Shown here: positions 13,732 to 40,459 of the stretch, piece by piece
Numbering within the stretch: the stretch's first letter is position 1
Layout of the letters: every line of letters starts with the position of its first letter
IMG/VR virus record: IMGVR_UViG_3300028558_000051
Span: 1 to 40,741 of that record
Reading direction: 5' to 3' (one strand)
DNA length: 40,741 nucleotides
Source of the DNA: a virus
Made by a program: the position numbers and the translations under genes
The notes under the pieces: model-generated
Seen by the model: only the letters and a program-made list of their open reading frames with translations
Told to the model about the DNA's origin: nothing
Databases searched by the model: none

Positions 13732-16700
13732 GTGCAGCGACATGTAAGCCATTCGATAGTCTCAGTAGCTATATTGTGGACCGGCGCCGCTATGGCGCAG
13801 ACCGCGCCGCTGCCCTCCGGCTACCAGTTCACCGCAACCGCGACCACCACTCTGACGCCCGGGACGACATCCAGTCGCACTGCGATCTCGAGCGTACCGA
13901 CAGCGCTGGTCACAAATCAGGGGGTGACGCCGGCTTGTGTAGCATTCGGCGGCTCGTCGGTGACCGCCATATGGCCCTGCGCTAATCTGTCCAACTCGCT
14001 GGTGAATCCGGGACAGACGCTCAACCTCGCAGTCAATGGCGCCGGGTACCTTGCGGGCATCACCGGGACCGGAACAGCGACACTCTCGATCCAGCAGGGC
14101 TATTTTTCGCCGCCTACGTCAGGAGGGTTGGCGTCCACAGTCAGTCAGGGCAGCGCGGGTTCCGCGTCGCAGGCATGGTTTAATCAGCTCGTACTTGGCG
14201 GCGCAGTTGTCTCTGCGACGAATGCCCTTCCGGTTCAGCCCGGTTCGGGTGCGACGTTTCCCGTCAGCGGAACATTCTGGCAGGCAACGCAGCCGATCTC
14301 CGCTGTATCGCTGCCATTGCCTTCGGGCGCGGCTACGCAGACGACGCTGGCAGCGATCCTGACGGCGCTCGGCTCGCCGATGCAACAGACCGGCGGGTCA
14401 GTCTCGCTCGCTGCGGCGCTTCCGGCCGGTTCCAATACGCTTGGCGCCGTGACTCAGGCATCGGGGCCGTGGACTTCCAATATAACCCAGTTCGGCGGTA
14501 ACGCGATTGCGACGGGGACGGGCGTAAGCGGAGCCGGCATCCCTCGGGTGACGATCTCGAATGATAGCTCGTTGGCGCCCAACCAGAGTGTCAATCTCTC
14601 GCAAATCGCCGGGATCACGACTTCGACTGGAGCCGGCGCGGCAGGAGTCGGGTCTCAGCGCGTAGCCGTGGGACAGGATGCTTCGACCATCGCCGGTTCC
14701 GCTCCCCCGACAGCAGCCACTCCCTTTGATGTTACGTTGGCGCTCGGCGGATCGCTGGTGACATCTGGCAACCCGTTGCCGATCATCTGCGAGTCAGGGT
14801 GTTCAGGGGGAGGAAGCGGCGGCGGAACATCGCTGGCGGATGCGTCATCATTCACGCAGGGCACTACGGCCCTGACGCCGATCGGCGGCATCTACACGAC
14901 TTCGCCCACCTCCTTGTCTTCGGGACAAGCCGGCGTTGCCAGGCTTACGGCGACGCGGTTGCTCATGGGGAACTTGCCTGATCTGGAGGCAACGCTCGGG
15001 CCTGGGGCGGCACCGTCCGACATGATCGTCTCCGGCTTGCAGTACAACACGTCGCCTCCTGCGCCGAGCAATGGTCAGACAGTCGCCTTACAGGGCGACT
15101 CGGGCGGGAACCTGTTGGTTGACCTGAAAACTTCGCTCCCCGCCGGTGCCAACACCATCGGTGCCGTGACGCAAGCGTCGGGGCCATGGACGGTCAGCCA
15201 GCCCACCGCAGCGAACCTCAATGCCACCGTCGTCGGAGCCGGCACGGCAGGTTCGCCGGCTGGCGGTGTAGTCTCGATCCAAGGCGTCACAAGCGGTCAG
15301 GCCGTTCCCGTCTCTGCGGCGTCGCTGCCGCTGCCGTCAAATGCAGCTCAGGAAACGGGCGGTAATCTTGCTACTCTTGCCGGCACGGTATCCGGCGGGA
15401 AGGTCGCGGTCTCGGGCACGTTCTGGCAGACGACGCAGCCGATAAGCGCAGCGTCGTTGCCGCTGCCGACCGGCGCCGCGACCGCCGCCAACCAGTCCAG
15501 CGTGCAGGGCACGGTCGCGGCGGGCACCGCACCCTCAAATGCCGTTATGGCGGGGCTGGTCTATAACTCAGCGGCTCCCACGCCGTCCAACGGACAAGCC
15601 CTCGCGCTGCAAGGCGATGCCTCGGGGAATCTCAAGGTCGATATCGCGACTAGCGCCACTATCTCGACCAACGTCGCCCAGGTGAACGGCTCAACGGTGT
15701 CCACCGGGGCCGGTGCTGCGGGAGGTGGCGCGCAGCGCGTGACCGTCGCCGAGGACACCAACACGATCGCCGGCAGTGCGCCGCCCACTACTTCTTCTCC
15801 GTTTGACGTGAGCCTCGTGCAGGGCGGAGCGGTCATCGGCGCTCTCAACGGTCTCTATGTGCAACCGGGCACCGGCGCGACATTCCCGGTCAGTGCCGCA
15901 TCACTTCCTCTGCCGAGCGGCGCGGCGATCTCGGCTGATCAGTGCGGCTGGGAGAGTGGATCTCCTTGCTACAGTGAGGGGCTTGGCACCGCTGGTTCGC
16001 CAAGCGGAGGGATTTTCACCGTCCAGGGCGTAAGCGGCGGCACCGCTCTATCGGTCTCGGCGGCTTCTCTCCCGCTACCCTCCGGTGCGGCAACCGCAGC
16101 AAATCAAACCGACGTTCAAGGTGTCGTCGGAGCCGGCACGGCCCCTGCGAGCATGGCGGTCGCCGGTCTCGTCTACAATTCTTCACCGCTTACGCCATCG
16201 GACGGGCAATCTCTCGCGCTACAGGGAGATGCCTCGGGCTATCTGTACACGGATGTCAAAGCGCTGCCTTCGATCCCGGCGGGCTCGAATACGATCGGGG
16301 CCGTTACACAAGCCTCCGGGCCGTGGACAGAAAATCTTACGCAGATCGACGGCAATGCGGTCCTGACCGGAGCCGGCGCCGTGGGCGCGGGATCGGTGCG
16401 AGTTGCCGTGGGCCAGGATGGGACCACGATCGCGGGGTCTTCTCCCCCGACGACGAGTTCGCCGTTTGATGTAGCCTTGGTGCAGGGCGGCGCCGTGATT
16501 GGAAGCACCAACGGCCTCTATACCCAGCCCGCGTCCGGCGCAACCTTCCCGGTGAGCGCGGCGAGCCTACCGCTTCCCACCGGAGCCTCGACGGCCGCCA
16601 ATCAGTGCGGATCGAGCAGCGGCGCGCCTTGCTACGCGGAGGGGCTGGGGACGGCCGGGTCTCCCGCCGGCGGCATCGTGAGCATTCAGGGCGTGTCCGG

Positions 16701-17142
16701 CGGAACGGTCGTCCCGGCGAACATTTCTCAAATCGCCGGCGGCTCGGTGCCGTCGCTCGGTACGGGCATTCTCGGCATATCGCCTGCGCCCACCGCGGCT
16801 GCGGGCGCAGGCATCGTTCCTGTCGCTTCAGCATCGGCCGAAGCGTCTCACGTCCTCAAATCGAGTGCGGGCAATTTCTATTCCGGCTCGGCCTTTAACG
16901 CGACGACGACGGCCGGCATCTGCATGCTGATCAACGCGACCGCCGCACCGACGACGGGAAGTTCGGTCACGCCCTTGGCGTGGAGCTACCTGCCGGCGAG
17001 CGGGCAATGCAGCATATCGACGCTCGGCGGCCCTCCGGCTTATTTCTCGACGGGAATCGTGTTTCTCGTCTCATCAAACGCCAGTCCCTTTACCTTCACG
17101 TCTGGCACGATCACCGCAGCCATCTCGGGGATGGTGCAATGA
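13732..17142 (+). CDS. Giant repetitive exported fibre-like protein, 1136 aa
   Basis: Start GTG 13732 is chosen because it gives a signal peptide (VQRHVSHSIVSVAILWTGAA then MA|Q, cut near residue 22). The rest is low-complexity Ala/Gly/Ser/Thr/Pro sequence built of degenerate repeats: TIGAVTQASGPWT-like units occur three times (codons near 14430, 15150, 16290), FPVSAASLPLPSGAATAANQ-like units at least six times, and PCYSEGLGTAGSPSGGI-type units with cysteines. A non-repeated C-terminal ~110 residues (GICMLINATAAPTTGSS, IVFLVSSNASPF) looks like a beta-sandwich. These repeats are familiar from phage long tail fibre-like proteins. The stop overlaps the next ATG. Confidence 0.7.
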   Translation: MQRHVSHSIVSVAILWTGAAMAQTAPLPSGYQFTATATTTLTPGTTSSRTAISSVPTALVTNQGVTPACVAFGGSSVTAIWPCANLSNSLVNPGQTLNLAVNGAGYLAGITGTGTATLSIQQGYFSPPTSGGLASTVSQGSAGSASQAWFNQLVLGGAVVSATNALPVQPGSGATFPVSGTFWQATQPISAVSLPLPSGAATQTTLAAILTALGSPMQQTGGSVSLAAALPAGSNTLGAVTQASGPWTSNITQFGGNAIATGTGVSGAGIPRVTISNDSSLAPNQSVNLSQIAGITTSTGAGAAGVGSQRVAVGQDASTIAGSAPPTAATPFDVTLALGGSLVTSGNPLPIICESGCSGGGSGGGTSLADASSFTQGTTALTPIGGIYTTSPTSLSSGQAGVARLTATRLLMGNLPDLEATLGPGAAPSDMIVSGLQYNTSPPAPSNGQTVALQGDSGGNLLVDLKTSLPAGANTIGAVTQASGPWTVSQPTAANLNATVVGAGTAGSPAGGVVSIQGVTSGQAVPVSAASLPLPSNAAQETGGNLATLAGTVSGGKVAVSGTFWQTTQPISAASLPLPTGAATAANQSSVQGTVAAGTAPSNAVMAGLVYNSAAPTPSNGQALALQGDASGNLKVDIATSATISTNVAQVNGSTVSTGAGAAGGGAQRVTVAEDTNTIAGSAPPTTSSPFDVSLVQGGAVIGALNGLYVQPGTGATFPVSAASLPLPSGAAISADQCGWESGSPCYSEGLGTAGSPSGGIFTVQGVSGGTALSVSAASLPLPSGAATAANQTDVQGVVGAGTAPASMAVAGLVYNSSPLTPSDGQSLALQGDASGYLYTDVKALPSIPAGSNTIGAVTQASGPWTENLTQIDGNAVLTGAGAVGAGSVRVAVGQDGTTIAGSSPPTTSSPFDVALVQGGAVIGSTNGLYTQPASGATFPVSAASLPLPTGASTAANQCGSSSGAPCYAEGLGTAGSPAGGIVSIQGVSGGTVVPANISQIAGGSVPSLGTGILGISPAPTAAAGAGIVPVASASAEASHVLKSSAGNFYSGSAFNATTTAGICMLINATAAPTTGSSVTPLAWSYLPASGQCSISTLGGPPAYFSTGIVFLVSSNASPFTFTSGTITAAISGMVQ

Positions 17143-17891
17143 CTGGGAAGCTCTTTGCTGCCGTCGCGGTGCTGATCCTCGGCGGAGCGCCGGCATTCGC
17201 TCAGATGGCGGGGTCGAACGGTCCGGCGGTTTCACCCGGCGGTACGAATGGAGCCGTTCAGTACAACAACAGCGGTGCTTTCGGTGGTTCATCGATCACC
17301 GGTCTCGTCAAGGGCAATGGCACGAGTGCGCCGAGCGCTGCGACGGCCGGGACGGATTACGCACCGGCGACGACGGGTTCATCGATTTTGAAGGCAAGCG
17401 CGGGTGGGTTTGCGAATGCTGTCGCCGGGACGGATTATGTAGGACCGACGACGGGAAGCGCGATCCAGAAAGCCAGTTCCGGTGGACTGACGGCGGCAAC
17501 GGCCGGGACGGACTACGGCGCTCCGGGCACGGCTGAAACTTGGACGGCCGGGCAGAGCGGCGGTCAGTTCACCCCGACGATCAGCGGGTCCACTTTCACC
17601 TGTGACTTCAATCAGGGGAACCACTGCATCATCCAGCTCGTGCATGCCTCATGCCCTTGCACGATCGCGGCCCCGAGCAACCTGTCGTCTCGGGTCGGCA
17701 TAACCGGGGTTATCACGATCGTTCAATCGTCCTCGGGCTCCGACATTGCAAGTTGGAATAGCGTGTTCAAGTTCGCGAACGCGACGGCGCCGACGCTCTC
17801 AACTGCCGCCAATGCGGTGGATGACTTCGGGTTTTATGCCAGGACGAGCAGTGCCGTCGATGTCGGCACCTTCGGCCTGAATTTTCACTGA
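17139..17891 (+). CDS. Exported tail fibre-like protein, 250 aa
   Basis: ATG 17139 overlaps the upstream TGA (ATGA). The N-terminus is a signal peptide (MTGKLFAAVAVLILGGAPAF then A|Q near residue 22). The body starts with fibre repeats: GGTNGAVQYNNSGAFGGSS, then three GTDY units (TAGTDYAP, VAGTDYVGP, TAGTDYGAP) typical of phage tail fibre shafts. The C-terminal ~120 residues form a probable beta-sandwich with cysteines (FTCDFNQGNHC, SCPCTIAAPS). It belongs to the run of four signal-peptide genes between sheath and tube. Confidence 0.7.
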   Translation: MTGKLFAAVAVLILGGAPAFAQMAGSNGPAVSPGGTNGAVQYNNSGAFGGSSITGLVKGNGTSAPSAATAGTDYAPATTGSSILKASAGGFANAVAGTDYVGPTTGSAIQKASSGGLTAATAGTDYGAPGTAETWTAGQSGGQFTPTISGSTFTCDFNQGNHCIIQLVHASCPCTIAAPSNLSSRVGITGVITIVQSSSGSDIASWNSVFKFANATAPTLSTAANAVDDFGFYARTSSAVDVGTFGLNFH

Positions 17892-17903: not shown

Positions 17904-18686
17904 ATGCGCCGCTACTTGCCGTGGGCGGTCTGCGTTGCGCTGCTGACTTGCATCGCGGCTCGCGCGGTGTCGGTTGCCGAAATCGCGCTTGCGAGTCCGG
18001 TCGGCATGCCGCCAATAGCAGTGGCACCATGCACTGCATCGCCGACCTACATCACCGCGACCGGAACGGGCACCTACACGCAGCCGGTAAATTGTAATCA
18101 CCTCACGGCGGAGGTTATTGGGGCCGGACAGAATGGAGGATCAAAGGGCGGTGGCGGAGGCGGATATTCCAGTTCAGGTTTCGTGTCCATAACCCCCGGC
18201 CTCACGATTGCATATTCAAACGGACTCGCTCCTGGGGGGAACACCTGGGTCTGTAATTCTACGAGCAACTGCGCTTCGATCGTTGGAACTGCCGTTATAG
18301 CAGGAGCGAATGGCGCGGGTACTGCGCCCGCAGGAGCTTCGACAACTGGAGCGATCGGTACTCTTAAATATGCCGGAGGCTCCGGTTTTTCATCATCGTC
18401 GGGGGGAGGAGGTGGCGCGGCCGGCCCCTACGGAGCGGGCAATAATTCTACTTCAAGCGTCGGCGGTTCGGGGGACGCGGGGTTTGGTGGAGCGGGAGGC
18501 GCGAGTCTCTCTTCGGGCGCTAACGGAACCGAAATGGGTGGCGGCTTGGGCGGCGGGGGCGGCGGTGGTTACAATAGCTCCACTACGCCCCAGACTATGG
18601 GTGGTACCTGCGGTGGAGGCGGAGGGGCCGGATTTTTTATCGGTTTAGGAGCCTCGGGCTGCATCAAGCTCACGCCGTCAAATTAA
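17904..18686 (+). CDS. Exported glycine-rich adhesin-like protein
   Basis: The 260-aa product starts MRRYLPWAVCVALLTCIAAR, a signal sequence or N-terminal anchor. It then has a short beta part (MPPIAVAPCTASPTYITATG and TYTQPVNCNHLTAEVIGAG) followed by glycine-rich runs (GGSKGGGGGGYSSSG, GGGLGGGGGGGYNSS, CGGGGGAGFFIGLGASG). Glycine-rich segments of this sort form polyglycine helix sandwiches in phage adhesins such as those at the tips of T-even long fibres. A homologous N-terminus is found in the broken gene at 40128 and a similar layout in the fibre gene at 33509. Confidence 0.68.
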   Translation: MRRYLPWAVCVALLTCIAARAVSVAEIALASPVGMPPIAVAPCTASPTYITATGTGTYTQPVNCNHLTAEVIGAGQNGGSKGGGGGGYSSSGFVSITPGLTIAYSNGLAPGGNTWVCNSTSNCASIVGTAVIAGANGAGTAPAGASTTGAIGTLKYAGGSGFSSSSGGGGGAAGPYGAGNNSTSSVGGSGDAGFGGAGGASLSSGANGTEMGGGLGGGGGGGYNSSTTPQTMGGTCGGGGGAGFFIGLGASGCIKLTPSN

Positions 18687-18702
18687 GTCGGAGAGCCGGT
18701 TC

Positions 18703-19290
18703 ATGAAATTTTGCCGTCATCTGATTGCGCTGGCCACCGCCATTGCGGCGACACAGTCACAAGCGCAAACCGCATCGTGCATCGACGGGCGAGTTGCCCC
18801 GCCGACGGTATACCTTGCCTCTGACGGAAATGGTGATCTCGACATCTTGTCCCCTGGCAGTACGGTGACATTGCCCGACAGCAGCCGCACCCCCTACTCT
18901 AGCCTCCCGCTATGGCCATCTGATCGTCTCGCCGCGGTGGGGATTTACGCGGTGACGACACCGACCGCGCCGAGTGGCCAGAGTCTCACCCAGATCTGCT
19001 ATGCGCTCGCGGATGGCAGCGTCACCGCGACGCCGACCTACGCGGATATTCCGGCACTGACAACGATTTCATCGGCGGCTTTTCAGGGCCGATTTACGGA
19101 CGCCGAGCAGGCTGCGATCTGGAAGGCGGCGGCACAGGATGCGACGGGTGCGATCGGCGCCGGGCTGACCAAAGGGCTGACGGCCGGGACGGTCGACCTG
19201 ACCTCGACAATCGTCAAAGGCTGGATGGACAGCCTCGTCACGGCAGGGGCAATCACCGCCGATCGCGAGACGGCGATCCTCACGCCCTGA
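18703..19290 (+). CDS. Exported protein with fibre-associated C-terminal domain, 195 aa
   Basis: ATG 18703 has GGAGA upstream. The N-terminus is a signal peptide (MKFCRHLIALATAIAATQSQAQ). The middle holds TVYLASDGNGDLDILSPGS and a strand-rich part. The C-terminal ~75 residues (FTDAEQAAIWKAAAQDATG, LTAGTVDLTS, GAITADRETAILTP) are almost the same as the last part of the broken gene at 40128-40459, showing that this two-gene block (glycine-rich protein plus this one) existed twice. No enzymatic motif is seen. Confidence 0.65.
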   Translation: MKFCRHLIALATAIAATQSQAQTASCIDGRVAPPTVYLASDGNGDLDILSPGSTVTLPDSSRTPYSSLPLWPSDRLAAVGIYAVTTPTAPSGQSLTQICYALADGSVTATPTYADIPALTTISSAAFQGRFTDAEQAAIWKAAAQDATGAIGAGLTKGLTAGTVDLTSTIVKGWMDSLVTAGAITADRETAILTP

Positions 19291-21728: not shown

Positions 21729-22664
21729 ATGAAATCAGCCCTTAACGCCCCGCATCTGTGCAACGAAGAAGCCGCAATCGAGTACGTCGAGGCGCGGCTG
21801 TGGCCGAACGGCCCGGTCTGCCCGCATTGCGGCACAGTCGGCGAGGCTGCGCGCTCAAAGGGCAAGACGACGCGGCCCGGTTTGTGGAACTGTCGCGCCT
21901 GCGACAAGCCCTTCACGGTCAAGATCGGCACGGTGTTCGAGTCGTCGCATATTCCGCTGCACATCTGGCTGCAAACCATCTACCTGTTTTCCAGTAGCAA
22001 GAAGGGCATCTCGACGCGCCAGCTTCAGCGCACCTTTGGCGGGTCGATGAAAACCGCGTGGTTCCTTGGGCATCGCGTCCGCGAGGCGATGGCGCAGCTC
22101 GGGCTAGACGTGCCCAGCGGCAGCCAACTCGGCGGCGCAAATCAGGTTGTCGAGATTGACGAGACCTACGTTGGCGGCAAGGCAAAGAACCGGAAGGGCA
22201 AAATCCCGCCGAAGTTCGTTGTGCTGGCGCTGGTCGAGCGCGACGGCAAGGTTCGCTCGTTCCATGTTCCGAACGTGACGGCCGCGACACTTGGGCCGGT
22301 CATCACCGCGAACGTCGATCGCGCTACCTTCGTGATGACGGATGAGGCTCCCGTCTACCCCAGTATCGGCCGCTGGTTCTCCGCTCACGGCACCGTCAAT
22401 CACTCGGCGGAGGAATATGTCCGGGCGCAGTTCTGGCACACGAACACCGTCGAAAACTACTTCTCGATGTTCAAGCGGTCGGTGTTCGGCTGCTACTTCC
22501 ACGTCAGCGAAGCTCATCTGCATCGCTACGCTGCGGAACGTGATTTCATGCACAACCATCGCCAGAAGCTCGGCTTTGACGACGCGGCGCGCGCCGATGC
22601 GATCCTTGCTGGCGCCAAGGGTAAGCGATTGACGTACCGTGGCACTGATCGCGCGGTCGCCTAA
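21729..22664 (+). CDS. IS1595/ISXO2-family DDE transposase
   Basis: The 311-aa product has an N-terminal zinc ribbon (VCPHCGTVGEAARS ... WNCRACDKPF, four cysteines in two CxxC pairs, residues ~37-65), a helical part (SSKKGISTRQLQRTFGGS) and an ISXO2-like catalytic domain. The latter shows VVEIDETYVGGKAKNRKGK (first D, ~residue 140), MTDEAPVYPSIGRWFSAHGT (second D) and TNTVENYFSMFKRSVFG (E), followed by a RYAAERDFMHNHR helix. This is the IS1595 pattern. The length is normal and no frameshift is seen. It catalyses cut-and-join at the repeats found at both ends. Confidence 0.93.
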   Translation: MKSALNAPHLCNEEAAIEYVEARLWPNGPVCPHCGTVGEAARSKGKTTRPGLWNCRACDKPFTVKIGTVFESSHIPLHIWLQTIYLFSSSKKGISTRQLQRTFGGSMKTAWFLGHRVREAMAQLGLDVPSGSQLGGANQVVEIDETYVGGKAKNRKGKIPPKFVVLALVERDGKVRSFHVPNVTAATLGPVITANVDRATFVMTDEAPVYPSIGRWFSAHGTVNHSAEEYVRAQFWHTNTVENYFSMFKRSVFGCYFHVSEAHLHRYAAERDFMHNHRQKLGFDDAARADAILAGAKGKRLTYRGTDRAVA

Positions 22665-27168: not shown

Positions 27169-27456
27169 TCAGGGGAGTCCAGTATGCGTGCAGGTCATTA
27201 GCGCGCGATTCCAATCTGCCGTTACGCGCGCGACGAGCGCCAAACTGCACGTCCCATTTTTGCAAGCCTTTTTGACGACTTCATAATCCGACCAACAAGG
27301 TGCGATGCGAGCGGTACAAGTGGCCGAACGAGGGTCGTAGCATTCAGGCATTCCGGCCGGGACGCTATTTTGAGCCTCGGCAACGTCGATATTTGAGATT
27401 GCGATTACGATCGCAATTAGCCGTCCAAGAATTTCCCGATGGGACATGAAACGCAT
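27169..27456 (-). CDS. Antisense secreted Cys-rich small protein, 95 aa
   Basis: On the minus strand, ATG at 27456 has AGGAAGAGG upstream. The product begins MRFMSHREILGRLIAIVIAI and continues SNIDVAEAQN: a signal peptide likely cut after AEA. The mature ~65 residues contain six cysteines (ECYDP, ATCTA, APCWS, KACKN, GTCSL, MTCTH), enough for three disulfides in the periplasm. Orientation against the tail operon suggests independent expression, as for prophage 'moron' genes. The function is unknown. Confidence 0.6.
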   Translation of the reverse strand: MRFMSHREILGRLIAIVIAISNIDVAEAQNSVPAGMPECYDPRSATCTARIAPCWSDYEVVKKACKNGTCSLALVARVTADWNRALMTCTHTGLP

Positions 27457-27542
27457 AGAGCCTCTTCCTTTCTGCCTTCAACCTTCAACGATGATCGTTA
27501 CCGGGGAGTGGAGGCGGTAGGCCGGTCATGAGATTGGAGCTG

Positions 27543-27737
27543 CTATCCGCCGGACCGTTGAATACTTCGTCGACACGCCGAGGCGAAATGATCCTGCGTC
27601 ATCTCCGCCTTGTTGCGGATACTACGCACATCGATTTTCGGCGGCACATGCAACCGCCGCGGCGCTGCGGTTCCCCGCGCGATTTCCAGGGCTTCGCTCA
27701 GCCCTTCGGCGATCTTGTCGAATGCTGCCTTGCTCAT
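27543..27737 (-). pseudogene. Truncated XRE-type antitoxin (HigA/RelB-partner type)
   Basis: The 64-residue frame reads MSKAAFDKIAEGLSEALEIA, then RLHVPPKIDVRSIRNKAEM and TQDHFAS. This matches the start of antitoxins of the type that pair with RelE/HigB-like toxins (IDVRAIR.K..MSQ..FA.), but the sequence then departs from the expected helix-turn-helix second half (ACRRSIQRSGG, stop), so it is likely cut short by a frameshift or deletion. It lies just downstream of a toxin-like fragment on the same strand, the usual toxin-antitoxin order in this group. 27457-27542 shows no gene. Confidence 0.5.
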
Positions 27738-27739
27738 GG

Positions 27740-27931
27740 TTAAGCCCTCGCTTTCACGACGCGTGCACGATATTCGGCGACAATGGCTTTCGATATGGTT
27801 GCCAACGCATTTCGTTCTGCCTTGGACAGGTTCGCGCGTTCACCTTTCGAGAACGCGGCGAGCAGGAAATCGATGATTGCCTTTTCGACGAGCGAAGGCT
27901 CGCGGGTCGCGGTGATGAGAAAGATGGCCAT
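27740..27931 (-). pseudogene. Probable RelE/HigB-type toxin fragment
   Basis: The 63-residue frame ends FSKGERANLSKAERNALATI, similar to the C-terminal phrase 'GFAKSERANLS..E..AL' of RelE/HigB-type toxins, and its stop precedes the antitoxin start by two bases. The N-terminal ~40 residues of a ~100-aa toxin, including most of the RNase fold, are missing; residues 1-25 (MAIFLITATREPSLVEKAII) do not resemble the family. Calling it a toxin fragment rests on one phrase plus gene order, so confidence is moderate. If so, the pair cannot be an active system. Confidence 0.4.
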
Positions 27932-28006
27932 GCAAGGTCAACGCTCTCATAGGGCGTCCATCACGGTAAGTGGGCTGCTTGGCGATAGCGGCAACGGTAA
28001 TCGCTG

Positions 28007-28663
28007 ATGGGCTCCCCTTTCGCATCCGTGCTGTCGAATGCTAGCCCGCCACAGTGGGGCTTGTTCAGTCAGGACGGCACGCCAACGCTAGTCGCATCAT
28101 CCTTTGCCACGCTCGATTACGCGCACGACTATCGCATCTCCAATTACCAACAAGAGCAAGGCGCGTTCGCCAGCTACAACAAGGTGCAGCAGCCTTTTAT
28201 TGCGAAGGTGGGGTTCCTTGTCGGCGGTGATGCCGGAACGCGATCGGCCTTTCTCAATCAGGCCGAGCAGGTGTGCGCGACGCTTGATCTTGTCACGATC
28301 ATTACGCCGGAGATACCCTACCTTAACGCAAACCCGGTTCACGTCAGTTACCGCCGCACAGCGAAGAACGGCGTCACACTAATCCTCGTTGAGATCGACC
28401 TCGAAGAAGTCCGGCTCATCACAAGCGCCGCATTGTCGAATACGGCATCGGTCAATGGCGCGGCGCCTCAGCAAAATGGCATCCAGCAGCCAGGCGCCGC
28501 GCTGACATCGCAGACAGCCTCGCCGTCCGGTGTGGGGCCGCAGACCACGATCACCACGTCGCAGGCGCAGACGAATTCGAATTATCAGTTCTTCAATCTC
28601 GCGCCGCCTGCGACGCAAAATCTCAACGAGACATCGGCCTTCTATAAGGGGCCAACAACCTGA
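28007..28663 (+). CDS. Dit-like baseplate protein
   Basis: The 218-aa product has YAHDYRISNYQQEQGAFASY followed by NKVQQPFIAKVGFLVGGD and AFLNQAEQVCATLDLVTI, traits of the Dit-like N-terminal tail domain (VRISNYPVE.G....YNKV..P). The C-terminal ~60 residues are Gln/Thr/Ser-rich and probably flexible. It is the first baseplate gene after the tape measure once the antisense inserts are ignored. The stop overlaps the next start (TGATG). Confidence 0.72.
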   Translation: MGSPFASVLSNASPPQWGLFSQDGTPTLVASSFATLDYAHDYRISNYQQEQGAFASYNKVQQPFIAKVGFLVGGDAGTRSAFLNQAEQVCATLDLVTIITPEIPYLNANPVHVSYRRTAKNGVTLILVEIDLEEVRLITSAALSNTASVNGAAPQQNGIQQPGAALTSQTASPSGVGPQTTITTSQAQTNSNYQFFNLAPPATQNLNETSAFYKGPTT

Positions 28664-29031
28664 TGGCCGCAGTCTCGCAAATCATCCCAAGCCAGCCAGT
28701 GGCTTCACAAACCCTCAACGTGACGCTGAATCAGCAAGCTTGCCAAATCAACATCTACGCCAAGAACATCTGGGTGCCGGTGACGCCGGCCGGCTCGATC
28801 CCGACCGACCCGCCCGCGTATGTTGAGACGACGGTCTTCTTCCTCGACTTATTTCTCAATGACACACTGATCATCGGCGGATGCCTCGTGCGTAACGGGG
28901 TGGGTGTCGTGCAGAACTCGTATTTCGGTTTCGTCGGCGAGATCGCGATCGAGGACACCGAAGGTGATACCGACCCAACGATTGCCGGTCTCGGCACGCG
29001 ATATCTTTTAACCTATTGGTTCGATCAGTAA
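28663..29031 (+). CDS. Baseplate plug protein (Pam3 gp18-like)
   Basis: The 122-aa product begins MAAVSQIIPSQPVASQTLNV. It shows IIPSQPVASQTLNVTLNQQ, FFLDLFLNDTLIIGGCLVRN, a YFGFVGEIAIEDTEG strand and GLGTRYLLTYWFDQ, the pattern of the small plug protein in simple myophage baseplates such as cyanophage Pam3. It would sit in the central hub. It is translationally coupled to the Dit-like gene. Confidence 0.75.
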   Translation: MAAVSQIIPSQPVASQTLNVTLNQQACQINIYAKNIWVPVTPAGSIPTDPPAYVETTVFFLDLFLNDTLIIGGCLVRNGVGVVQNSYFGFVGEIAIEDTEGDTDPTIAGLGTRYLLTYWFDQ

Positions 29032-29032
29032 A

Positions 29033-30064
29033 ATGGGCTCGTCTTCCGGTGTCGTCGACCTGGGCACGCTGCCCGATGTCAATGTCACGGCCCAGGCACC
29101 GACAGCACAAACGCCCCCGACGCCGACGACCGTAACCGCGCCGACGCAGGCCAGTGGGTCATTTGTCGCGCGGATCATATCGCTTGTTATCCAGCTCGGC
29201 ACCGGCTCCTTCGGTAATTCCGGCTCGAACACTTTAACTCTCGGGCCGATCGGCAACGCAGGGACACAACCCTACAATAGCCTGCGGTGCGTCGTGCAAA
29301 TTCAGGCCGCTTCAGCGCCGTTTCCGGGTCTAGCTATCGTTCAAGTATGGGGTCTGAGCCTAGATACGATCAACCAACTCAGCATTGCAGGGCTCATATG
29401 GGGAAGCCGCGGTAATTACGTCGCCATCCAGGCTGGCGATTCCGTGAACGGTCTGACGACGATCTTCACTGGAGAAATCGTCCAAGCCTACCCGCGCGCG
29501 AACCAGCCTGAAATGCCGCTCGTCATCGTGCTCAACCCCGCATACGGCATCCAACTCACGCCAGCCAATCCAACGACCTTCAGCGGTCCGACAAATGGCG
29601 TGACCGCGCTCACCGCGGCATTGAAACCAACCAAATTTGTCCTCGAAAATAACGGTGTTTCCGCGATCCTCTCAAACCCCTATTTTCACGGTTCGGCGTG
29701 GGATCAGGTGAAGGCGATAACCGCAGCGATGGGCGCGGTCGGCTATCTGGATTCCGCCAAGAGCGTCTACGCGATCTGGCCCCAGAATGGCAATCGGACT
29801 GGCGGCAATACCCCACTGATTTCCCCTCAGACGGGAATGATCGGCTACCCCGAATTTCAGCAGAGGTTAATCCGGGTACGCACGCTGTTTGACCCGCATG
29901 CATCGCTATCGGTGGGCCATGAAATTCAGGTGGAGAGCCAGCTTAAGGCCGCGAACGGAACCTGGCCGATTTCGACAATTACGCACGATATTTCAGCGCA
30001 GCTAGCTGATGGTCCCTGGGAAACGTCGATTGTCGCGGTCCGCAACACAACGCCGGGATCATGA
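29033..30064 (+). CDS. Baseplate hub protein
   Basis: The 343-aa product starts at ATG 29033, two bases after the plug stop. An N-terminal Pro/Thr-rich stretch (APTAQTPPTPTTVTAPTQAS) precedes a hub-type beta fold: VVQIQAASAPFPGLAIVQVW, FTGEIVQAYPRANQPEMPLV, GSAWDQVKAITAAMGAVGYL and PQTGMIGYPEFQQRLIRVR. The order plug-hub-spike matches simple contractile baseplates. The C-terminus contains WPISTITHDISAQLADGPWE, which fits the last hub domain. The stop overlaps the spike ATG (ATGA). Confidence 0.72.
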   Translation: MGSSSGVVDLGTLPDVNVTAQAPTAQTPPTPTTVTAPTQASGSFVARIISLVIQLGTGSFGNSGSNTLTLGPIGNAGTQPYNSLRCVVQIQAASAPFPGLAIVQVWGLSLDTINQLSIAGLIWGSRGNYVAIQAGDSVNGLTTIFTGEIVQAYPRANQPEMPLVIVLNPAYGIQLTPANPTTFSGPTNGVTALTAALKPTKFVLENNGVSAILSNPYFHGSAWDQVKAITAAMGAVGYLDSAKSVYAIWPQNGNRTGGNTPLISPQTGMIGYPEFQQRLIRVRTLFDPHASLSVGHEIQVESQLKAANGTWPISTITHDISAQLADGPWETSIVAVRNTTPGS

Positions 30065-33508: not shown

Positions 33509-34498
33509 ATGGACGCAAGTAGTATCCCCTACAAAATTCCAGCACCATTTGCCTCGGGCAATCTTTCGAATGCGACGGTTCCAATCCCCACGGCCGCGCA
33601 ACCCAATGGGTTCGCATCATGGAACGAGGGATGGGGGATCATCAATGCCACCAACCCGAGCGCGGGCGGCATCCCACCTCGGTGGCAAGATTTTCTCGGG
33701 ATATTCTATATCTGCTCGGCATGGCTGCAATGGGTGCAAGCTGGGGGTGCTCCCGTTGCTTACGACAGCGCATTCCAAATCACAATCGGCGGCTATCCCA
33801 ACGGCGCTGTTGTCGCCTCCGCAACATATGCCGGCGTTTACTGGGTGTCCACAATCGACAATAATTTGTCCGATCCAGATACCGGCGGAGCAAATTGGGA
33901 AACATTTCCCCAACATGGCTCGCTAATATTTACAGCTAGCGGAACATTCACCCCCCCGCTGCCATACTTTTATGCTGAAGGATGGGGAGGTGGCGGCGGT
34001 GGCGGCGGTGCAACTAGCAATATAGCGGTGGGGGGGACCGGTGGCGGTGGTGGTGGTTATTTCTATGGACTTTTCACTTGTACGCCAAGAAGCACATTCA
34101 CAATCACTATTGGTCTCGGCGGGACTGGCGGTTCGGCTTTCGGGGGAAACGGAGCAAATGGCACGGCCACTTCGCTAGGATCGCTTGCGACAGCGACTGG
34201 CGGCATGGGGGGCGTCGGCAATGGTAGCATTCCTGCCTTAGGGGGCAATGCCGTTGGTGGTCAAATTCAGTGCTCCGGTGTAGATGGCGGTTTCAGTTAT
34301 TCCATTGGCGACGGTTCTTATCTCGGTGGAATAGGCGGGTCTTCCTATAAGGGACCACCTCCTTCGCCGAATAATAGTGCGGAAGGTCATCCGGGAAATT
34401 ATCCCGGCGTCGGCGGTAACGGATCATCCGGAAACGCCAGTGGCGGTGGGTCCCCCGGTGGCGATGGAGCCAACGGCCAAATTAACGTGTGGTGGTAA
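33509..34498 (+). CDS. Glycine-rich tail fibre/adhesin
   Basis: The 329-aa product has a virion-attachment-type N-terminus without signal peptide (MDASSIPYKIPAPFASGNLS, then WNEGWGIINATNPSAGGIPP). A middle part reads VYWVSTIDNNLSDPDTGGAN, a short carbohydrate-binding-like phrase. From ~residue 148 it has a FTASGTFTPPLPYFYAEGWG strand pair followed by long Gly-rich runs. That arrangement corresponds to the glycine-rich domain in the exported protein at 17904, so one fold appears both on a virion protein and on an exported one. It probably binds the host surface. Confidence 0.72.
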   Translation: MDASSIPYKIPAPFASGNLSNATVPIPTAAQPNGFASWNEGWGIINATNPSAGGIPPRWQDFLGIFYICSAWLQWVQAGGAPVAYDSAFQITIGGYPNGAVVASATYAGVYWVSTIDNNLSDPDTGGANWETFPQHGSLIFTASGTFTPPLPYFYAEGWGGGGGGGGATSNIAVGGTGGGGGGYFYGLFTCTPRSTFTITIGLGGTGGSAFGGNGANGTATSLGSLATATGGMGGVGNGSIPALGGNAVGGQIQCSGVDGGFSYSIGDGSYLGGIGGSSYKGPPPSPNNSAEGHPGNYPGVGGNGSSGNASGGGSPGGDGANGQINVWW

Positions 34499-34500
34499 AC

Positions 34501-35031
34501 ATGGCATTGTTCGCTCTGGTGGCCAACGGCAAAATCTGCCAACTTTCCGCAGCTATGTTTCCTGTCGCCCCGCCGATGCAGTGGACGACAGATGTCAGCC
34601 GTATTTCGCCCCAACCGCAAGATGGATGGTCCGCGACTTTAAACGGCCAAACGTGGATATTTGATGCTCCCCCCTCCCCTCCGTCGCCGACATTGGCGCA
34701 GCAAGCGCGGGGGGCGGCGATCGGCGGTCTAATTGTGGCTCTGTCCGGTAGCGTAGCGCTGGCCGCAACACTGTTTCCGACCGATCGGGTGACGCAGCAG
34801 AAACTCAGCGCAGTGGTGACGACGATCGCTGCGACCGGCACTTTCCCTGGCGGCGCGACGAGCTATCCGCTCAAGGACGCGGACGGAGGATGGCATACGC
34901 TGACGATCGATCAGTACAAGGTGGTTGCGGGAGCTATCGCCGCTTATGTCGCCGCCTGCGATCTGATCGCCGATGGCAACCCCCTGAGCGCGACCGAACT
35001 TCCGGCGAGCATTGTCAGCCTGACGGTCTGA
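34501..35031 (+). CDS. Fibre-associated protein, DUF4376-like C-terminus
   Basis: ATG 34501 (MALFALVANGKICQLSAAMF) lies three bases after the fibre stop. The 176-aa product has ISPQPQDGWSATLNGQTWIF in the N-terminal half and an Ala-rich helix (GGLIVALSGSVALAATLF). The C-terminal ~65 residues (SYPLKDADGGWHTLTIDQYK, VVAGAIAAYVAACDLIADG) resemble the DUF4376-type domain found in fibre-assembly or fibre-end proteins. A chaperone role for the glycine-rich fibre is plausible but not shown. 35032-35119 contains no gene. Confidence 0.6.
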   Translation: MALFALVANGKICQLSAAMFPVAPPMQWTTDVSRISPQPQDGWSATLNGQTWIFDAPPSPPSPTLAQQARGAAIGGLIVALSGSVALAATLFPTDRVTQQKLSAVVTTIAATGTFPGGATSYPLKDADGGWHTLTIDQYKVVAGAIAAYVAACDLIADGNPLSATELPASIVSLTV

Positions 35032-35119
35032 TCTTCACGCCTAGCGCCGTATGCCTTAGGCGCATTATGCGGAACGCAGATGCGCTGCGTCAAACGATCA
35101 TAGTCGAAAAGAACATATC

Positions 35120-36268
35120 ATGCGATTTCTTGTCATGATTGTGTTGCTGGGTATTGCGTCTACAGCAAATGCCCAAAGCGGCTGCCCACAGAACCAGTCA
35201 CCGCCGATATCGGGCGGCGGCAGTGTCTTTGGCGCGATTGTTTCGCAATGGAAGCAATTTTTTGCCGCTAAGATCGACGCCATTAACGGATGCTCGGTCA
35301 ACTTGAACTTGATCAATCCTACATTAAACGGAATAACCATAACAGCGTATCTGCCATTAGCCGGCGGGACAATGAGCGGTGGTATCGTGATGGGGAATCA
35401 CGATATCACGGGCGCCGGGACGGTCGATGCCTCAACGCTCAAGCAAGGCGGCGCAGCCTTGACGAGCTTGTTCTCCCCTCTCGCCGGAAGTTCCAGCCTG
35501 ACAACCGTTGGCACCATCGGTTCCGGCACCTGGAACGGTGTTCCGATCGACACGGCTCATGGCGGCACGAATGCCACCTCACAAACGACGAACGGAGTCG
35601 CTTACTACGACGGCACGAAATTGGTGACGGACGGGGCTTTGACGTGGGACGGAACTACATTGGAGATAGGATCGAACCCCGTCTATACGGTTTCCGGCTC
35701 GACCACCAACGGCAACTGCGTCGAATTTGGGGCCGGACATATCTTAGCCGATACCGGAAGTCCTTGCGGCTCCGGCGGCGGTGGAGGCGGTTCAGTCACG
35801 AGTGTCGGCCTGAACTTGCCGAGCAGTATTTTTGCTGTCTCTGGTACTCCTGTCACGACCAGCGGTGTACTGACCGGCACTCTTCAGACGCAAAGCGCCA
35901 ACACAGTATTTGCCGGACCGTCTTCAGGCGCGGCCGCTGCGCCGACCTTTCGGTCTTTGACCACCGCCGATCTTCCTACATCGGTTTCGTCCGGTGTTGT
36001 GGCGACGGGGTCGACACAGGGAACAGCCGCAGCTCTCACGGCGAGTGTCAATGTGATCAACACGGTAGCGTCGGGCACCGGGGTGATCGATAGCGCTGCG
36101 ACCAATATTCCGGTCCGAGTGCTTAATCGTGGCGCCAACGTACTGAACTTCTATCCGCCGTCCGGCGCTCAGATCGAGAGTTTCGGCACGAACAATCCCG
36201 TCATCGTCGCCGTTGGTGGGTCCACTACAGTGTTATGTATCTCGTCAACTCAATGTTGGAGTTATTAA
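35120..36268 (+). CDS. Exported tail fibre-like protein, 382 aa
   Basis: The N-terminus is a signal peptide: MRFLVMIVLLGIASTANA then QSGCPQN. After a stretch with VSQWKQFFAAKIDAINGCSV the body has fibre-shaft features (LPLAGGTMSGGIVMGNHDIT, TVGTIGSGTWNGVPIDTAHG, GGTNATSQTTNG). Residues ~225-290 contain the SVTSVGLNLPSSIFAVSGTP domain followed by QTQSANTVFAGPSSGAAAAP, a common phage fibre domain. DNA of this part (35798-35978) is very similar to 39058-39238. The C-terminal ~90 residues (NFYPPSGAQIESFGTNNPVI) look like a beta-sandwich tip. Confidence 0.75.
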   Translation: MRFLVMIVLLGIASTANAQSGCPQNQSPPISGGGSVFGAIVSQWKQFFAAKIDAINGCSVNLNLINPTLNGITITAYLPLAGGTMSGGIVMGNHDITGAGTVDASTLKQGGAALTSLFSPLAGSSSLTTVGTIGSGTWNGVPIDTAHGGTNATSQTTNGVAYYDGTKLVTDGALTWDGTTLEIGSNPVYTVSGSTTNGNCVEFGAGHILADTGSPCGSGGGGGGSVTSVGLNLPSSIFAVSGTPVTTSGVLTGTLQTQSANTVFAGPSSGAAAAPTFRSLTTADLPTSVSSGVVATGSTQGTAAALTASVNVINTVASGTGVIDSAATNIPVRVLNRGANVLNFYPPSGAQIESFGTNNPVIVAVGGSTTVLCISSTQCWSY

Positions 36269-36272
36269 TCCA

Positions 36273-37859
36273 ATGGACAGCAATCTGCTGACTGCAACAT
36301 ATGTCACCCCTGAGAACTTCGGCGCGAAAGGTGACGGATCGACCGATGATACAGCCGCTATACAGGCGGCGGACACCTGGGCGCGTGCGCACGGGAACAT
36401 GATGGTCTTGTTCTCGGCCAAGACCTATATGGTATCACAGTTAGTTGTCTATAGTGGCACGAACTGGATGGGAACCGGGCTACCGATGGGAGCCAACGAT
36501 ACGTCATTCACGCCGCCAATAGCAGGAACGATCATTCGGCAGATCGTGGGATCGAATACCGATCTAATTTATGGCGTCAACAGCAATTTAAATTGGGGCA
36601 CCCTCAATCCCGTTAATCCTCCCGTTCGATATTCCCTCCAGCGACTGTGCCTGGATGGCAATTGGAACAACGGTGCCGGAAACGTCTCGGGGCATGGTAT
36701 AGCGATCTTCGGCAACGCCCCATTGATGAAAGATCTCTACATTTGCAACGTTGCTGGGTGCGGCATTCGTCATGCGTGGAGCGCACAGCACGATCCGACC
36801 CACACCCAAGGGTTCGAATTGTTCTCATCGGCGTACTGGGAGAATATTTCAATCGACACGTGCGGGCAGCACGGATGGTGGGACGGCGGTCCGACTGACG
36901 GAAACGTTAACTTCTGTTACATCGTTGATTCCAGCCGCAGTGCGAATAACGCCTATGACGGATTATACGCGGATTCCGGCAGCGACCTTTATTGGTTTAA
37001 TTTGCATCCATGGACGCGCCATTCTACGGCAGGGTTCGCCACGATCCGCTCACGGTATGCCCTCAACTGTCGCCCAGGGAGCAACAACACTTTCGCTGCC
37101 TGCCAGTTCGAAGGCGCCTATAGCGCGCCAGTAAATATATCTGGGAGCAACAATAAATTCGACTCGAATTGCAGTTTTTATGGTTCGGTCACGGGCGTTG
37201 TCATAAACATGAACACCCAGGCCAGCGGTAACATCGTGAAGGGATATGTCAACGGAAACCCGGTTAGCGGATTCCCCGCGGCGACCGGGATTCTCATTTC
37301 CAGCACACCTGGCGATGTGGTGGCAAACAACATTATCGACGTCAATTTCAGCGGAACCGGCCCGGCAATCACGGTCGGGACTGCCAGTAACTCCAATATC
37401 GTCAAAATCTCGGGCATCGGCGTGATGACGCCCCCTTGCTATGCTGGAACGTGGAGTCAAACTGATTATTACAAAATTATCAATGGCAATACGACCTTTA
37501 CTAATGGTCACTACCAGAGCTCCGTTGCTGTCGCGTCAGGACCTTTCATAAGCAGTGCCGTGACAACCAATATTCTCAGTATGACAGTAAGCCCGGGAAC
37601 TTGGTTAATATGGGGAAGTGTCGCAGTCGGAACGACGACAGCAACAAGTATAGCCGGCGGATTTGGCACAACAAGCGGGGTCTTGCCTGTGGGAACGACC
37701 GGACAGCTCCGAAACACCGCTGGCAGCAGCAGTCCGGTCGATGCTGGGCAGGCGGTGATGACATTCACGGTCTCGACGACTGTTTATTTGATGATTAATG
37801 CCGTGTTCGGTGGCGGTTCCATCCGAGCCGGCGGCGAGCTGCAAGTGCAGAGATTGTGA
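36273..37859 (+). CDS. Beta-helix tailspike (pectate lyase 3 type)
   Basis: ATG 36273 (MDSNLLTATYVTPENFGAKG) gives 528 aa. Residues ~14-35 carry the entry motif of the pectate-lyase-3 fold, NFGAKGDGSTDDTAAIQAAD. The middle is a right-handed beta-helix with many N/S/G turns (NVSGHGIAIFGNAPLMKDLY, YDGLYADSGSDLYWFN). The C-terminal ~110 residues (ILSMTVSPGTWLIWGSVAVG ... GGELQVQRL) form a trimer-tip domain also found at the end of the broken gene 38981-40131. It probably degrades or binds a surface glycan. It has no signal peptide, unlike the gene just upstream. Confidence 0.8.
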   Translation: MDSNLLTATYVTPENFGAKGDGSTDDTAAIQAADTWARAHGNMMVLFSAKTYMVSQLVVYSGTNWMGTGLPMGANDTSFTPPIAGTIIRQIVGSNTDLIYGVNSNLNWGTLNPVNPPVRYSLQRLCLDGNWNNGAGNVSGHGIAIFGNAPLMKDLYICNVAGCGIRHAWSAQHDPTHTQGFELFSSAYWENISIDTCGQHGWWDGGPTDGNVNFCYIVDSSRSANNAYDGLYADSGSDLYWFNLHPWTRHSTAGFATIRSRYALNCRPGSNNTFAACQFEGAYSAPVNISGSNNKFDSNCSFYGSVTGVVINMNTQASGNIVKGYVNGNPVSGFPAATGILISSTPGDVVANNIIDVNFSGTGPAITVGTASNSNIVKISGIGVMTPPCYAGTWSQTDYYKIINGNTTFTNGHYQSSVAVASGPFISSAVTTNILSMTVSPGTWLIWGSVAVGTTTATSIAGGFGTTSGVLPVGTTGQLRNTAGSSSPVDAGQAVMTFTVSTTVYLMINAVFGGGSIRAGGELQVQRL

Positions 37860-37887
37860 CGCAAGATGTGATCCGCCATCATCACCG

Positions 37888-38745
37888 CTATATTAGATCG
37901 TGCATATACGGCAATGATGCAAAAATACGTCCCACAAAGAACGGCACAACCCAAAATCCAGATTCATCCAGCACGAGCTCTCTATTGAAGCGATTGGCTT
38001 CCGCATGGGCTGGAAGATATGCTAAACGTCCTTGCTTTTTGAGTGCGGCGTTGGGTTCGTAAAATCGTTCGCGGGTATGAGCCTCTTCCGACTGGCGCTG
38101 ATGTGCGCCCCACCCCGCGGTCAAAGCGTGATCGGACCAAGCCATATTCCTGGTGAATCGCAGCCGATTAATTGCGATTTCGTAGTCGGCCCATTTTGTG
38201 TGAAAAAGCCATAATGCCGGATCAGCGTGAACCGGCTTATCGCTAGCATGGAAACCTTCGGACCAGCGCGTCGGCTCTCTTACGATCACCGGCTTGCACA
38301 TGGGCGATCGAAATTCGAACGCCGTACGCTGAGATAATATGGGACGAGCCGGATCGAGTGCAGGCTCCTTTTCGCGTTGATGAACGATATTAAAACCAAC
38401 GGGGCGACTGAAAGGGCTGCTCATCGAGCTGACGTATTCCGTGATAGTCGTAAAAACATGCGGATCGGGGACAATCAATTCGTCGGAATCGGTATAAATC
38501 ACAGCGTCAAAATGTCGGAGAAAATACCGCTGCACATCATTTACAAAATTAACGCGAGCGGCATCGTCAAATGGAGAGCGCGGGAGTCGAAGACGTTCAG
38601 CCGGGGCAATGTTTTCAGTACTCCCATCATCCGAACCATGATCGATCACCAAAAGATGCTTAACATGCCGCTGATAATGCCGCATCCATCGCTGTAAGTT
38701 AGAGCCATCATTATACACCATGGTCATTACAACAACGTTCAGCAT
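37888..38745 (-). CDS. Glycosyltransferase family 2-like protein
   Basis: The 285-aa product begins MLNVVVMTMVYNDGSNLQRW, with HLLVIDHGSDDGSTENIAP and the metal/nucleotide-sugar motif AVIYTDSDELIVPDP near residue 85, as in glycosyltransferase 2/92-like enzymes (N-E-ggnL..W..hy). The C-terminal half contains ALWLFHTKWADYEIAINRLR. There is no membrane segment. It converges on the tailspike gene. An antisense sugar-transfer gene beside receptor-binding genes suggests modification of host surface glycan during lysogeny, which is inference. Confidence 0.8.
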   Translation of the reverse strand: MLNVVVMTMVYNDGSNLQRWMRHYQRHVKHLLVIDHGSDDGSTENIAPAERLRLPRSPFDDAARVNFVNDVQRYFLRHFDAVIYTDSDELIVPDPHVFTTITEYVSSMSSPFSRPVGFNIVHQREKEPALDPARPILSQRTAFEFRSPMCKPVIVREPTRWSEGFHASDKPVHADPALWLFHTKWADYEIAINRLRFTRNMAWSDHALTAGWGAHQRQSEEAHTRERFYEPNAALKKQGRLAYLPAHAEANRFNRELVLDESGFWVVPFFVGRIFASLPYMHDLI

Positions 38746-38980
38746 CTGTGGATTCCCTGATTAACTGAGAACAAAGTGCTGTCCTGCCTAGAATCCATAG
38801 CCACGTAGCTGCCCAGGCAACGTACTCTGTCTCGCCGACCGCAGCATCGTCTCATTCAGGTCAGGTGCGGGGCGCTTATGGTGGCCGGGTCATTATATTA
38901 CGAAGACTCTGGCTACAGGGTCGGCAATGGCAGCAACGACGCCCATCTACATAACCCCACTGTACTGAGGAAGGTCCGTG
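38746..38980. other. Intergenic region upstream of the decayed fibre set
   Basis: About 235 bases between the start of the antisense glycosyltransferase gene and the next fibre gene. No coding frame is convincing. Both flanking genes are transcribed away from it, so it should hold promoters for both, but I see no clear -35/-10 pair. A GAGGAAGG ribosome site lies at 38967-38974 just before ATG 38981. Confidence 0.5.
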
Positions 38981-40131
38981 ATGAGGATCCTCGCGCTTGC
39001 ATGCATCATCTTTCTGATGGCGTTCTCGCTAGCTAAAGCACAAAGCGGCGGAACGGTCACGAGCGTTGGCCTGAACTTGCCGAGCAGCGTCTTTGCGGTC
39101 TCGGGTACCCCGGTGACGACGAGCGGGACACTAACCGGCACTCTCCAGACGCAAAGCGCCAACACAGTATTCGCCGGGCCGTCCTCCGGCGCGGCCGCCA
39201 CGCCGACCTTTCGGTCGCTGGTCACGGCCGATCTGCCGAGCACCGTGTTATCTGGTCCGGGGTCGTCCACCTCTGGCTACATCCCGACGTGGAACGGCAC
39301 CACTGGAAACGCCCTCGGCGCCGGCATCGCCGTGCCAGTGCCGGTGGCCAGCGGCGGTACGGGGGCTACATCGCTGAGCACCGCGTTCGATGGCGCGTAC
39401 TGCTCGACCGTGGGCTACCTACTGGTCCGCTTTACTGGCTCGTGGACGTGCGGCAAGGGAGTCCCTGCTAACCCGGTCTGGTGGGGCGCGGACCCCACGG
39501 GGACAGCGGACTCGACGTCGGCATCTTCATCGCCAGCGCGGCACCGGGGACCGTGTTCACAAGCAACTTCTTTGAAGACCTGCAAGACGGCATCCTCCTG
39601 GCCTCCGGTTCATCCGGCGTGCTCAGCGCGAACAACACGTTTGTCGGCAACACGACGGACATCGGCGACGTAGGTTCTAGCAACCCGAAGACCTACACGA
39701 CCACCGGAACGGCATATTGGACGAGCGGCACCCAGTCGGGGCAGAATCCGCCGGCCGGTTACGTGGGCGAGTATGTCTCCAACGCCGCGAGCGGGGTCTT
39801 CGTCCCAGGCAGCGCTACCCCCATCACGAATGTTACGCTCACGCCCGGCGATTGGGATGTGACCGCTACCGTGACGGTCACGCCCACCGGGACGATCCAG
39901 TCCGCGGCGGGCGGCGTCAATACCACGACGTCGATGCCCTCGGTCATCTCCAGCGGACGCGCCTTCTCGCAGGTCGTGGCCACCGACACGGCCACGGAGC
40001 AGGCGTTCGTGCTGATGCCGTCGAGGTTCAACGTAACATCGTCTACGACGGTCTACTGCCTGGCATCGGCGTCGATCACCTCCGGCGCGGTGTCAGGCGG
40101 GTGCTATCTACGCGCGCGGAGGCTGCCGTGA
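38981..40131 (+). pseudogene. Exported fibre/tailspike gene with internal out-of-frame deletion
   Basis: ATG 38981 starts a signal peptide (MRILALACIIFLMAFSLAKA then QSGG), followed by the TSVGLNLPSSVFAVSGTPVT fibre domain, a VPVASGGTGATSLSTAFDGA shaft repeat and WWGADPTGTADSTSA, the entry motif of a pectate-lyase-3 beta-helix. At ~39510-39525 this frame turns to nonsense, while the -1 frame becomes coding (VGIFIASAAPGTVFTSNFFE ... LSANNTFVGNTTDIGDV) and ends with the NVTLTPGDWDVTATVTVTP tip domain at 40131. Nearly all of the beta-helix is missing. A deletion that changed the frame explains this; as it stands, the first frame stops at 39673. Confidence 0.75.
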
Positions 40132-40459
40132 GCAGGTCGTTTTCCTTCGCTGTGCTTCCTTGGTTGATGATCTTTGCGAATGGCGCCCACGCGCAGTCGA
40201 TCGGCGGCATGCCGCCTATCTCCGTCTCCTGCCTCGCGTCGCCCACTTATATCACCGCGACCAGCACGGGCACGAGCAGGCGGCGATCTGGAAGGCCGCG
40301 GCGGCGGATACGACCGGCGCGCTGGGCGCCAGCCTCATCAAGGGGCTGAGCGCCGGGACGGTCGATCTCACCTCATCGGAGGTCAAGACGTGGATGGACG
40401 CCCTCGTCACGGCGGAGGCCATCACCGCCGACCGCGAGACGGCGATCCTGACGCCCTGA
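40128..40459 (+). pseudogene. Fusion of two fibre-cassette genes by deletion
   Basis: GTG 40128 has GGAGG about five bases upstream and begins a signal peptide (VSRSFSFAVLPWLMIFANGA then HAQSIGG). The next residues (GMPPISVSCLASPTYITATS) match the exported glycine-rich protein at 17904. At ~40273 the DNA switches to sequence matching the end of the neighbouring gene at 18703 (EQAAIWKAAAADTTG ... ITADRETAILTP, stop 40457-40459), but in another frame. So the intervening glycine-rich and N-terminal parts of two adjacent genes were lost in one deletion. The current frame stops at 40349 after 73 codons. Confidence 0.8.

Follow-up and report, generated by a model that had tools for sequence, protein, structure and literature searches.

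We found that the gene at 35120..36268 of the analysed window, an IMG/VR virus record of 40,741 nucleotides that carries a myovirus tail module, belongs to a class of fibre-like proteins with an N-terminal signal peptide (SP), and we propose that these proteins are probably SP-tagged receptor binders that would be used outside the virion or finished outside the cytoplasm. What can be read directly from the sequences is the recurrence of such genes, their position, the features of the SPs, an exact exchange of the SP for a start methionine, paired cysteines and a bias towards even cysteine numbers. SPs were called with our own strict rule for the n-, h- and c-regions, not with SignalP, and a few by eye.

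The plus-strand gene 33509..34498 of the window encodes a baseplate-type tail fibre with an N-domain of phrog_12796 (4.4e-27) and a C-domain of Gly_rich_2. It is followed on the same strand by a DUF4376 protein without SP (34501..35031, with the ATG at 34501 taken as start; PF14301, 4.9e-8), which is a fibre-assembly-type neighbour. Then comes the intact exported fibre-like protein of 382 aa (35120..36268, plus strand), with its SP at 35120-35173 (MRFLVMIVLLGIASTANA, QSGC following the predicted cleavage), a short N-domain of the QW family described below and an SVGLNLPSS domain at about 35786-35976. Four bases past its stop starts a beta-helix tailspike-type protein (36273..37859, plus strand; PF12708, 3.7e-7) without a recognisable baseplate-binding N-domain. 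As the sequence-only reading had stated, neither 33509 nor 36273 has an SP. A glycosyltransferase family 2 gene on the opposite strand (37888..38745, minus; PF13704, 1.6e-9) lies between this tail operon and a block with the SP-bearing plus-strand genes 38981..39673 (SP 38981-39040, MRILALACIIFLMAFSLAKA before QSGG) and 40128..40349 (SP 40128-40193, VSRSFSFAVLPWLMIFANGAHA before QSIG). No DNA-level relatives of 33509-40349 were found among phage records.

All three N-termini that had been read as SPs, those of 35120, 38981 and 40128, are confirmed as such, but only 35120 and 38981 pass the strict rule; 40128 fails it, probably because a proline interrupts its hydrophobic core. Of the three genes, moreover, only 35120 is intact. 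The beta-helix frame of 38981, which begins behind an SVGLNLPSS domain, breaks at about 39515, and its second half resumes in another frame as the ORF 39481..40131 (plus), which carries the end of the beta-helix and a C-terminal knob (NosD, phrog_11393). The PF12708-type helix of this gene is represented by its two ends, in different frames, and a stretch equivalent to roughly residues 15-338 of 36273 is missing. Gene 40128 is an out-of-frame remnant with a 17904-like start and an 18703-like end: 40205-40273 matches 18002-18073, 40273-40459 matches 19104-19290, and the two halves are joined out of frame at base 40273. The junctions in both genes may be real deletions or assembly joins. Genes 38981 and 40128 are best taken as decayed members of the exported-fibre class, which is also represented by 35120 and by the island at 13732-19290.

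Further SP genes of the window start at 794, 13732, 17139, 17904 and 18703 on the plus strand, all of which pass the rule, and at 27447 on the minus strand. Nearly all SPs of the window end in AxA/Q (the slash marks cleavage), and a cysteine at position +1, the mark of a lipobox, is absent at these sites in the SP genes of the window and in the QW proteins. Four of the genes form, together with an HNH-type gene, an island (13047-19290) between the sheath (11099) and tube (20396) genes. They encode a 1136-aa repeat protein with 10 cysteines in its mature part (13732..17142), a protein with a tail-fibre-type C-terminus (17139..17891; phrog_7760, 2.9e-4; 4 cysteines), a glycine-rich protein (17904..18686; 6 cysteines) and a relative of phrog_25252 (18703..19290; 2 cysteines), all on the plus strand. 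Since the sheath and tube genes are adjacent in a related locus (L005), the island is probably an insertion. The minus-strand gene 27169-27447, directly behind the gene 25073-27160, encodes a small exported protein whose mature part contains six cysteines. A transposase-like ORF with a zinc-ribbon start (CPHCG) was also seen within the tail operon (21729-22664).

Relatives were gathered via the baseplate gene J, which gave 80 loci in IMG/VR and 80 in prophages of named genomes, 145 of which were non-redundant and used for counting SPs; the top isolated relative by gene J is Acetobacter phage phiAO1 (43%). SP genes make up 70 of the 369 genes at 1-6 kb downstream of J and 25 of the 942 at 1-8 kb upstream (odds ratio 8.6, p 1e-21). 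Because lysis genes also lie downstream of J, the count was repeated with only those proteins that reach 250 aa or more, and the excess persisted (44/251 downstream versus 11/344 upstream, p 2e-9). A downstream SP gene of this size occurs in 37 of 107 loci. Gene calls on contigs were heuristic, and with many IMG/VR loci being fragments, the lack of a gene counts for little.

Many of the SP-bearing fibres have in common a short N-domain just after the SP, which we call QW (typical form QSSPNLTYGQVPTAGQWNSYFAAKQDVLGYTPLN; motif G-x-V/T...QW..YF..K.D, directly behind the SP or the start methionine). The motif is present in 35120, a diverged member of a subfamily B with the pattern CPxxx..GGxVFGxxxxQWxxFFAAKxDaxNG. 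It scores 107 bits against the profile of subfamily B, which includes its own row, and 39.8 bits against the profile of the main family, whose seed also includes it. The family comprises 78 distinct members, or 70 after dereplication at 85%, and these divide into 57 with SP, 11 without SP and two ambiguous cases, in one of which (L194) the SP is intact but lies in a neighbouring frame. The cores of the QW SPs have diverged while their design is constant. In SP-free members the start methionine lies at most a few residues from the point where SP-bearing members are cleaved, for example MGSSPNLSYG in L093 (compared with AQSSPNLSYG), MGNSPGWTFG in L108 and MACGPQSTPNF in L252, which characterises the SP as a module that is swapped without touching the mature part. 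Homologs without SP, named by the sequence-only reading as evidence against its proposal, therefore do exist (11 of the 68 scored), yet they do not overturn export; they are proteins from which the SP was precisely lost or to which it was never added. In L087 (14875-14910) an SP-free QW fibre starts with MGAQSSPGWSYG (MGAQSSPGW); it retains the AQ of a cleavage site, as if this had been left behind when an SP was lost.

The QW family was absent from 50,697 phage records, with no isolated phage carrying it, and from plasmids, and of the 397 genomes of the order that were scanned only two contain it. It appears to be confined to phages and prophages, and these counts speak against the QW fibres being secreted proteins of the host. 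An AlphaFold2 model of the domain (pLDDT 79, pTM 0.51) contains a single helix (14-26) along with a small beta element; it has no match in PDB or BFVD at E <= 0.001, and sequence searches assigned the domain to no known fold.

Exported bacterial proteins favour even cysteine numbers (PMC7678975), and the same was observed here. The cysteine count is even in 44 of 50 mature SP-bearing QW proteins and in 18 of 20 other SP-bearing fibre-like proteins, compared with 18 of 61 SP-free baseplate-type fibres, 42 of 85 other SP-free fibres and three of five SP-free QW proteins. Pooled, the ratio of even to odd is 62:8 with SP and 63:88 without (p 1e-11). It is 52:7 versus 49:59 (p 2.6e-8) after clustering at 50% identity over 50% of the length and, under very strict single-linkage clustering, 15:3 versus 26:21, where p is only 0.046. 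In the window, each of the seven SP genes that are intact has an even number (2, 10, 4, 6, 2, 6 and 6), with 6 in the mature part of 35120, while the SP-free fibres 33509 and 36273 have 3 and 9. We take the even-cysteine bias as a mark of folding in the oxidising periplasm, which would make the export real. The SP-free baseplate-type fibres tend towards odd counts (18 even, 43 odd), possibly due to shared descent of one conserved cysteine. The QW domain itself has two cysteine positions, which are both occupied in 19 members and both empty in 49; in the six that were listed as unpaired, the cysteine belongs to the SP. The pair is found in 18 of 57 members with SP and in one of 11 without (p 0.16), so that it is not significant alone as a mark specific to SP-bearing proteins, and the SP-free L252 has it too. 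The parity bias, the pairing of the QW cysteines and a cysteine pair in the baseplate-type fibre of L103 (see below) are independent signs that folding really takes place in the periplasm. A mis-start by chance, already judged unlikely by the sequence-only reading, is rejected in view of the pattern in the QW family, the excess of SPs at the same place in many phages and the even cysteine numbers of the mature proteins.

Three fold classes had been thought to exist in both exported and virion-type versions within the window. This is borne out for the beta-helix, where 36273 is homologous to ORF 39481-40131 over the end of the helix and the C-terminal knob (score 146, z 9.9; the best of 300 shuffles reached 89). 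For the glycine-rich class, the homology between 33509 and 17904 is weak and suggestive (z 4.1, above 300 shuffles), and a comparison of profiles gave no signal for this pair. The SVGLNLPSS domain is common to 35120 and 38981 (z 26.7), both exported, and is found within the window in exported proteins only; a non-exported protein with this domain occurs in another phage (L010). The general idea that one domain exists in exported and non-exported versions is confirmed by the QW family with its SP-bearing and SP-free members. Neither 35120 nor 38981 matches phrog_12796.

From these pairs, it had been suggested that the phage makes a virion receptor binder and a secreted copy of it, and this is not supported. 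Among 35 same-phage pairs of a baseplate-type and an SP-bearing fibre at one locus, not one has a C-terminal domain in common (E 1e-5), but six cross-phage pairs do. This indicates that the C-terminal modules come from one pool, with different ones on the two fibres of a given phage. QW fibres with and without SP substitute for each other at the same locus across phages and do not coexist as paired copies. Furthermore, two phages export the baseplate-type fibre itself, the only such fibre found in them. Among 102 homologs of the 33509-type fibre, 95 have no SP call and two have a convincing SP (L021:11268 and L103:12282). In L021 and L103 both fibres are SP-bearing, and a second baseplate-type fibre was not found in the record or genome of either. 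L103 alone among the 102 has a new cysteine pair in the baseplate-type N-domain, and the mature part of its fibre contains 4 cysteines. A dual start that would yield an exported and a virion form from one gene was rejected for L021 and L103: the internal ATG sits immediately past the cleavage site, and no Shine-Dalgarno-like sequence precedes it. In L096 (12321-14447) the frame of a baseplate-type fibre continues without a stop into an SP-bearing QW gene with an internal start at 12903, so that the locus may give rise to a fusion protein or to two products.

Isolated phages of Acetobacter carry comparable genes. In phiAO1 an SP-free fibre (27982-29025) is followed by BCZ75793.1, a protein with an SP and a pectate-lyase/tailspike domain that is annotated only as hypothetical. 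In phiAX1 (LC644973.1; L260) the SP-bearing fibre-like gene BCZ75904.1 adjoins BCZ75905.1, a GH66 enzyme of the dextranase/cycloisomaltooligosaccharide glucanotransferase family (27387-29312; PF13199, 3e-84) whose SP is seen when the gene is read from 27387, upstream of the annotated start. The exported GH66 enzyme beside the fibre-like gene favours a role of export that is directed at polysaccharides. Both phages come from mitomycin-induced particles, and the paper describing them contains none of the terms signal peptide, tail fiber, SDS-PAGE and mass spectrometry (PMC8566455).

We hypothesize, with about even confidence for and against, that the class comprises late Sec-exported, disulfide-bonded fibre or tailspike proteins that act freely on envelope glycans at lysis and are not copies of the virion fibre of the same phage. 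The near-total absence of SPs from the other baseplate-type fibres and the GH66 enzyme of phiAX1 favour this free-protein reading. Against it, the SP-free orthologs at the same locus suggest that export would be dispensable for the final role. The main competing explanation, which we regard as possible but rather doubtful, is that true virion fibres are exported, gain disulfides and join the tail either once lysis opens the inner membrane or after release. In its favour, L021 and L103 each export the only baseplate-type fibre found in them, which suits periplasmic maturation of virion fibres better than it suits a free protein; the new N-domain cysteine pair and the four mature cysteines of L103 also count for it. 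The interchangeability of QW fibres with and without SP at one locus and the C-terminal modules held in common with virion-type fibres of other phages are in line with it as well. However, 100 of the 102 baseplate-type fibres have no convincing SP, so that virion fibres are as a rule not exported; the QW domain does not resemble the N-domain that binds the baseplate, and the assembly of tailed phages is cytoplasmic.

Lysogenic conversion or superinfection exclusion, in which a protein made and exported in the lysogen modifies or occupies the surface receptor, appears unlikely to us. Exported phage proteins that block receptors exist, such as the T5 lipoprotein Llp, which excludes superinfection by blocking the receptor FhuA (PMC9586334), and the 38981 block sits behind the opposite-strand glycosyltransferase gene; but 35120 and most of its relatives are part of the late tail operon and share its strand, and the QW proteins are large fibres without lipobox or outer-membrane anchor, not small lipoproteins. 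Llp resembles the 35120-type proteins in being phage-encoded, exported and acting on the receptor of the phage's own binder, but it is a small periplasmic lipoprotein without a fibre fold. Very improbable is a reading without export, in which the SP would be a hydrophobic anchor at the N-terminus or an effect of chance or annotation. The complete lack of the SP in some homologs and the broken state of the window copies 38981 and 40128 would agree with such an artefact, but AxA/Q sites, diverged cores of constant design, the exact exchange of SP for methionine and the even-cysteine bias argue against it.

Under the free-protein reading, the 35120 class would represent extra fibre- or tailspike-like proteins. 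Their genes belong to the late tail operon of myophages from Alphaproteobacteria (Acetobacteraceae, Hyphomicrobiales) and relatives, a position that suggests late expression. The predicted Sec-type SP would carry the protein across the inner membrane and be cut by signal peptidase at AxA/Q. The mature proteins would fold in the oxidising periplasm, many of them with disulfide bonds, and be released from there at lysis. As free glycan binders or depolymerases, they could then act on the envelope of the producing cell, on debris and on neighbouring cells, so that the progeny would escape from the polysaccharide layer and would not be titrated by spent receptors. More generally, and with somewhat more confidence, we propose that a large group of tailed phages may route receptor-binding fibres through Sec and the Dsb-oxidising periplasm, either for mounting on the virion at lysis or as free, disulfide-stabilised binders or depolymerases, and that the SP module comes and goes without the fibre leaving its position in the tail operon.

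The 35120-type proteins resemble known tail fibres and pectate-lyase-type tailspikes (phrog_12796, phrog_863, phrog_11393, PF12708, PF21722) in their position after baseplate gene J, in low-complexity fibre bodies and in beta-helix, glycine-rich and knob C-domains. The known proteins act in the virion without an SP, in contrast to the 35120 type with its predicted Sec export and even cysteine numbers. Phage depolymerases free of the virion, and the GH66 enzyme of phiAX1, have glycan-directed domains in common with it, but catalysis by 35120 is putative and a lyase-type beta-helix is found in only some members of the family. The streptococcal PblA and PblB, prophage tail proteins that serve as adhesins on the host surface, are alike in working off the virion; they are not known to have an SP, and it is lysis that brings them to the surface.

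Tail fibres are usually treated as cytoplasmic parts of the virion, and a literature search for tail fibres with signal peptides found no description of them. If our proposal is true, many of the prophages in rhizobia, methylobacteria and acetic acid bacteria would release receptor binders apart from the particle, or the last steps of building their virions would take place outside the cytoplasm. This bears on the annotation and use of receptor-binding proteins and is testable in the isolated phages phiAO1 and phiAX1. In phiAP1 (LC644972.1; L258), an SP start at 3782-3925 (MTRYLLIITLVLAPAMASAQTRPNH) is followed by in-frame stops and then by a fibre body (3935-6022) related to the phiAO1 protein; the stops may reflect decay or a recoding signal.
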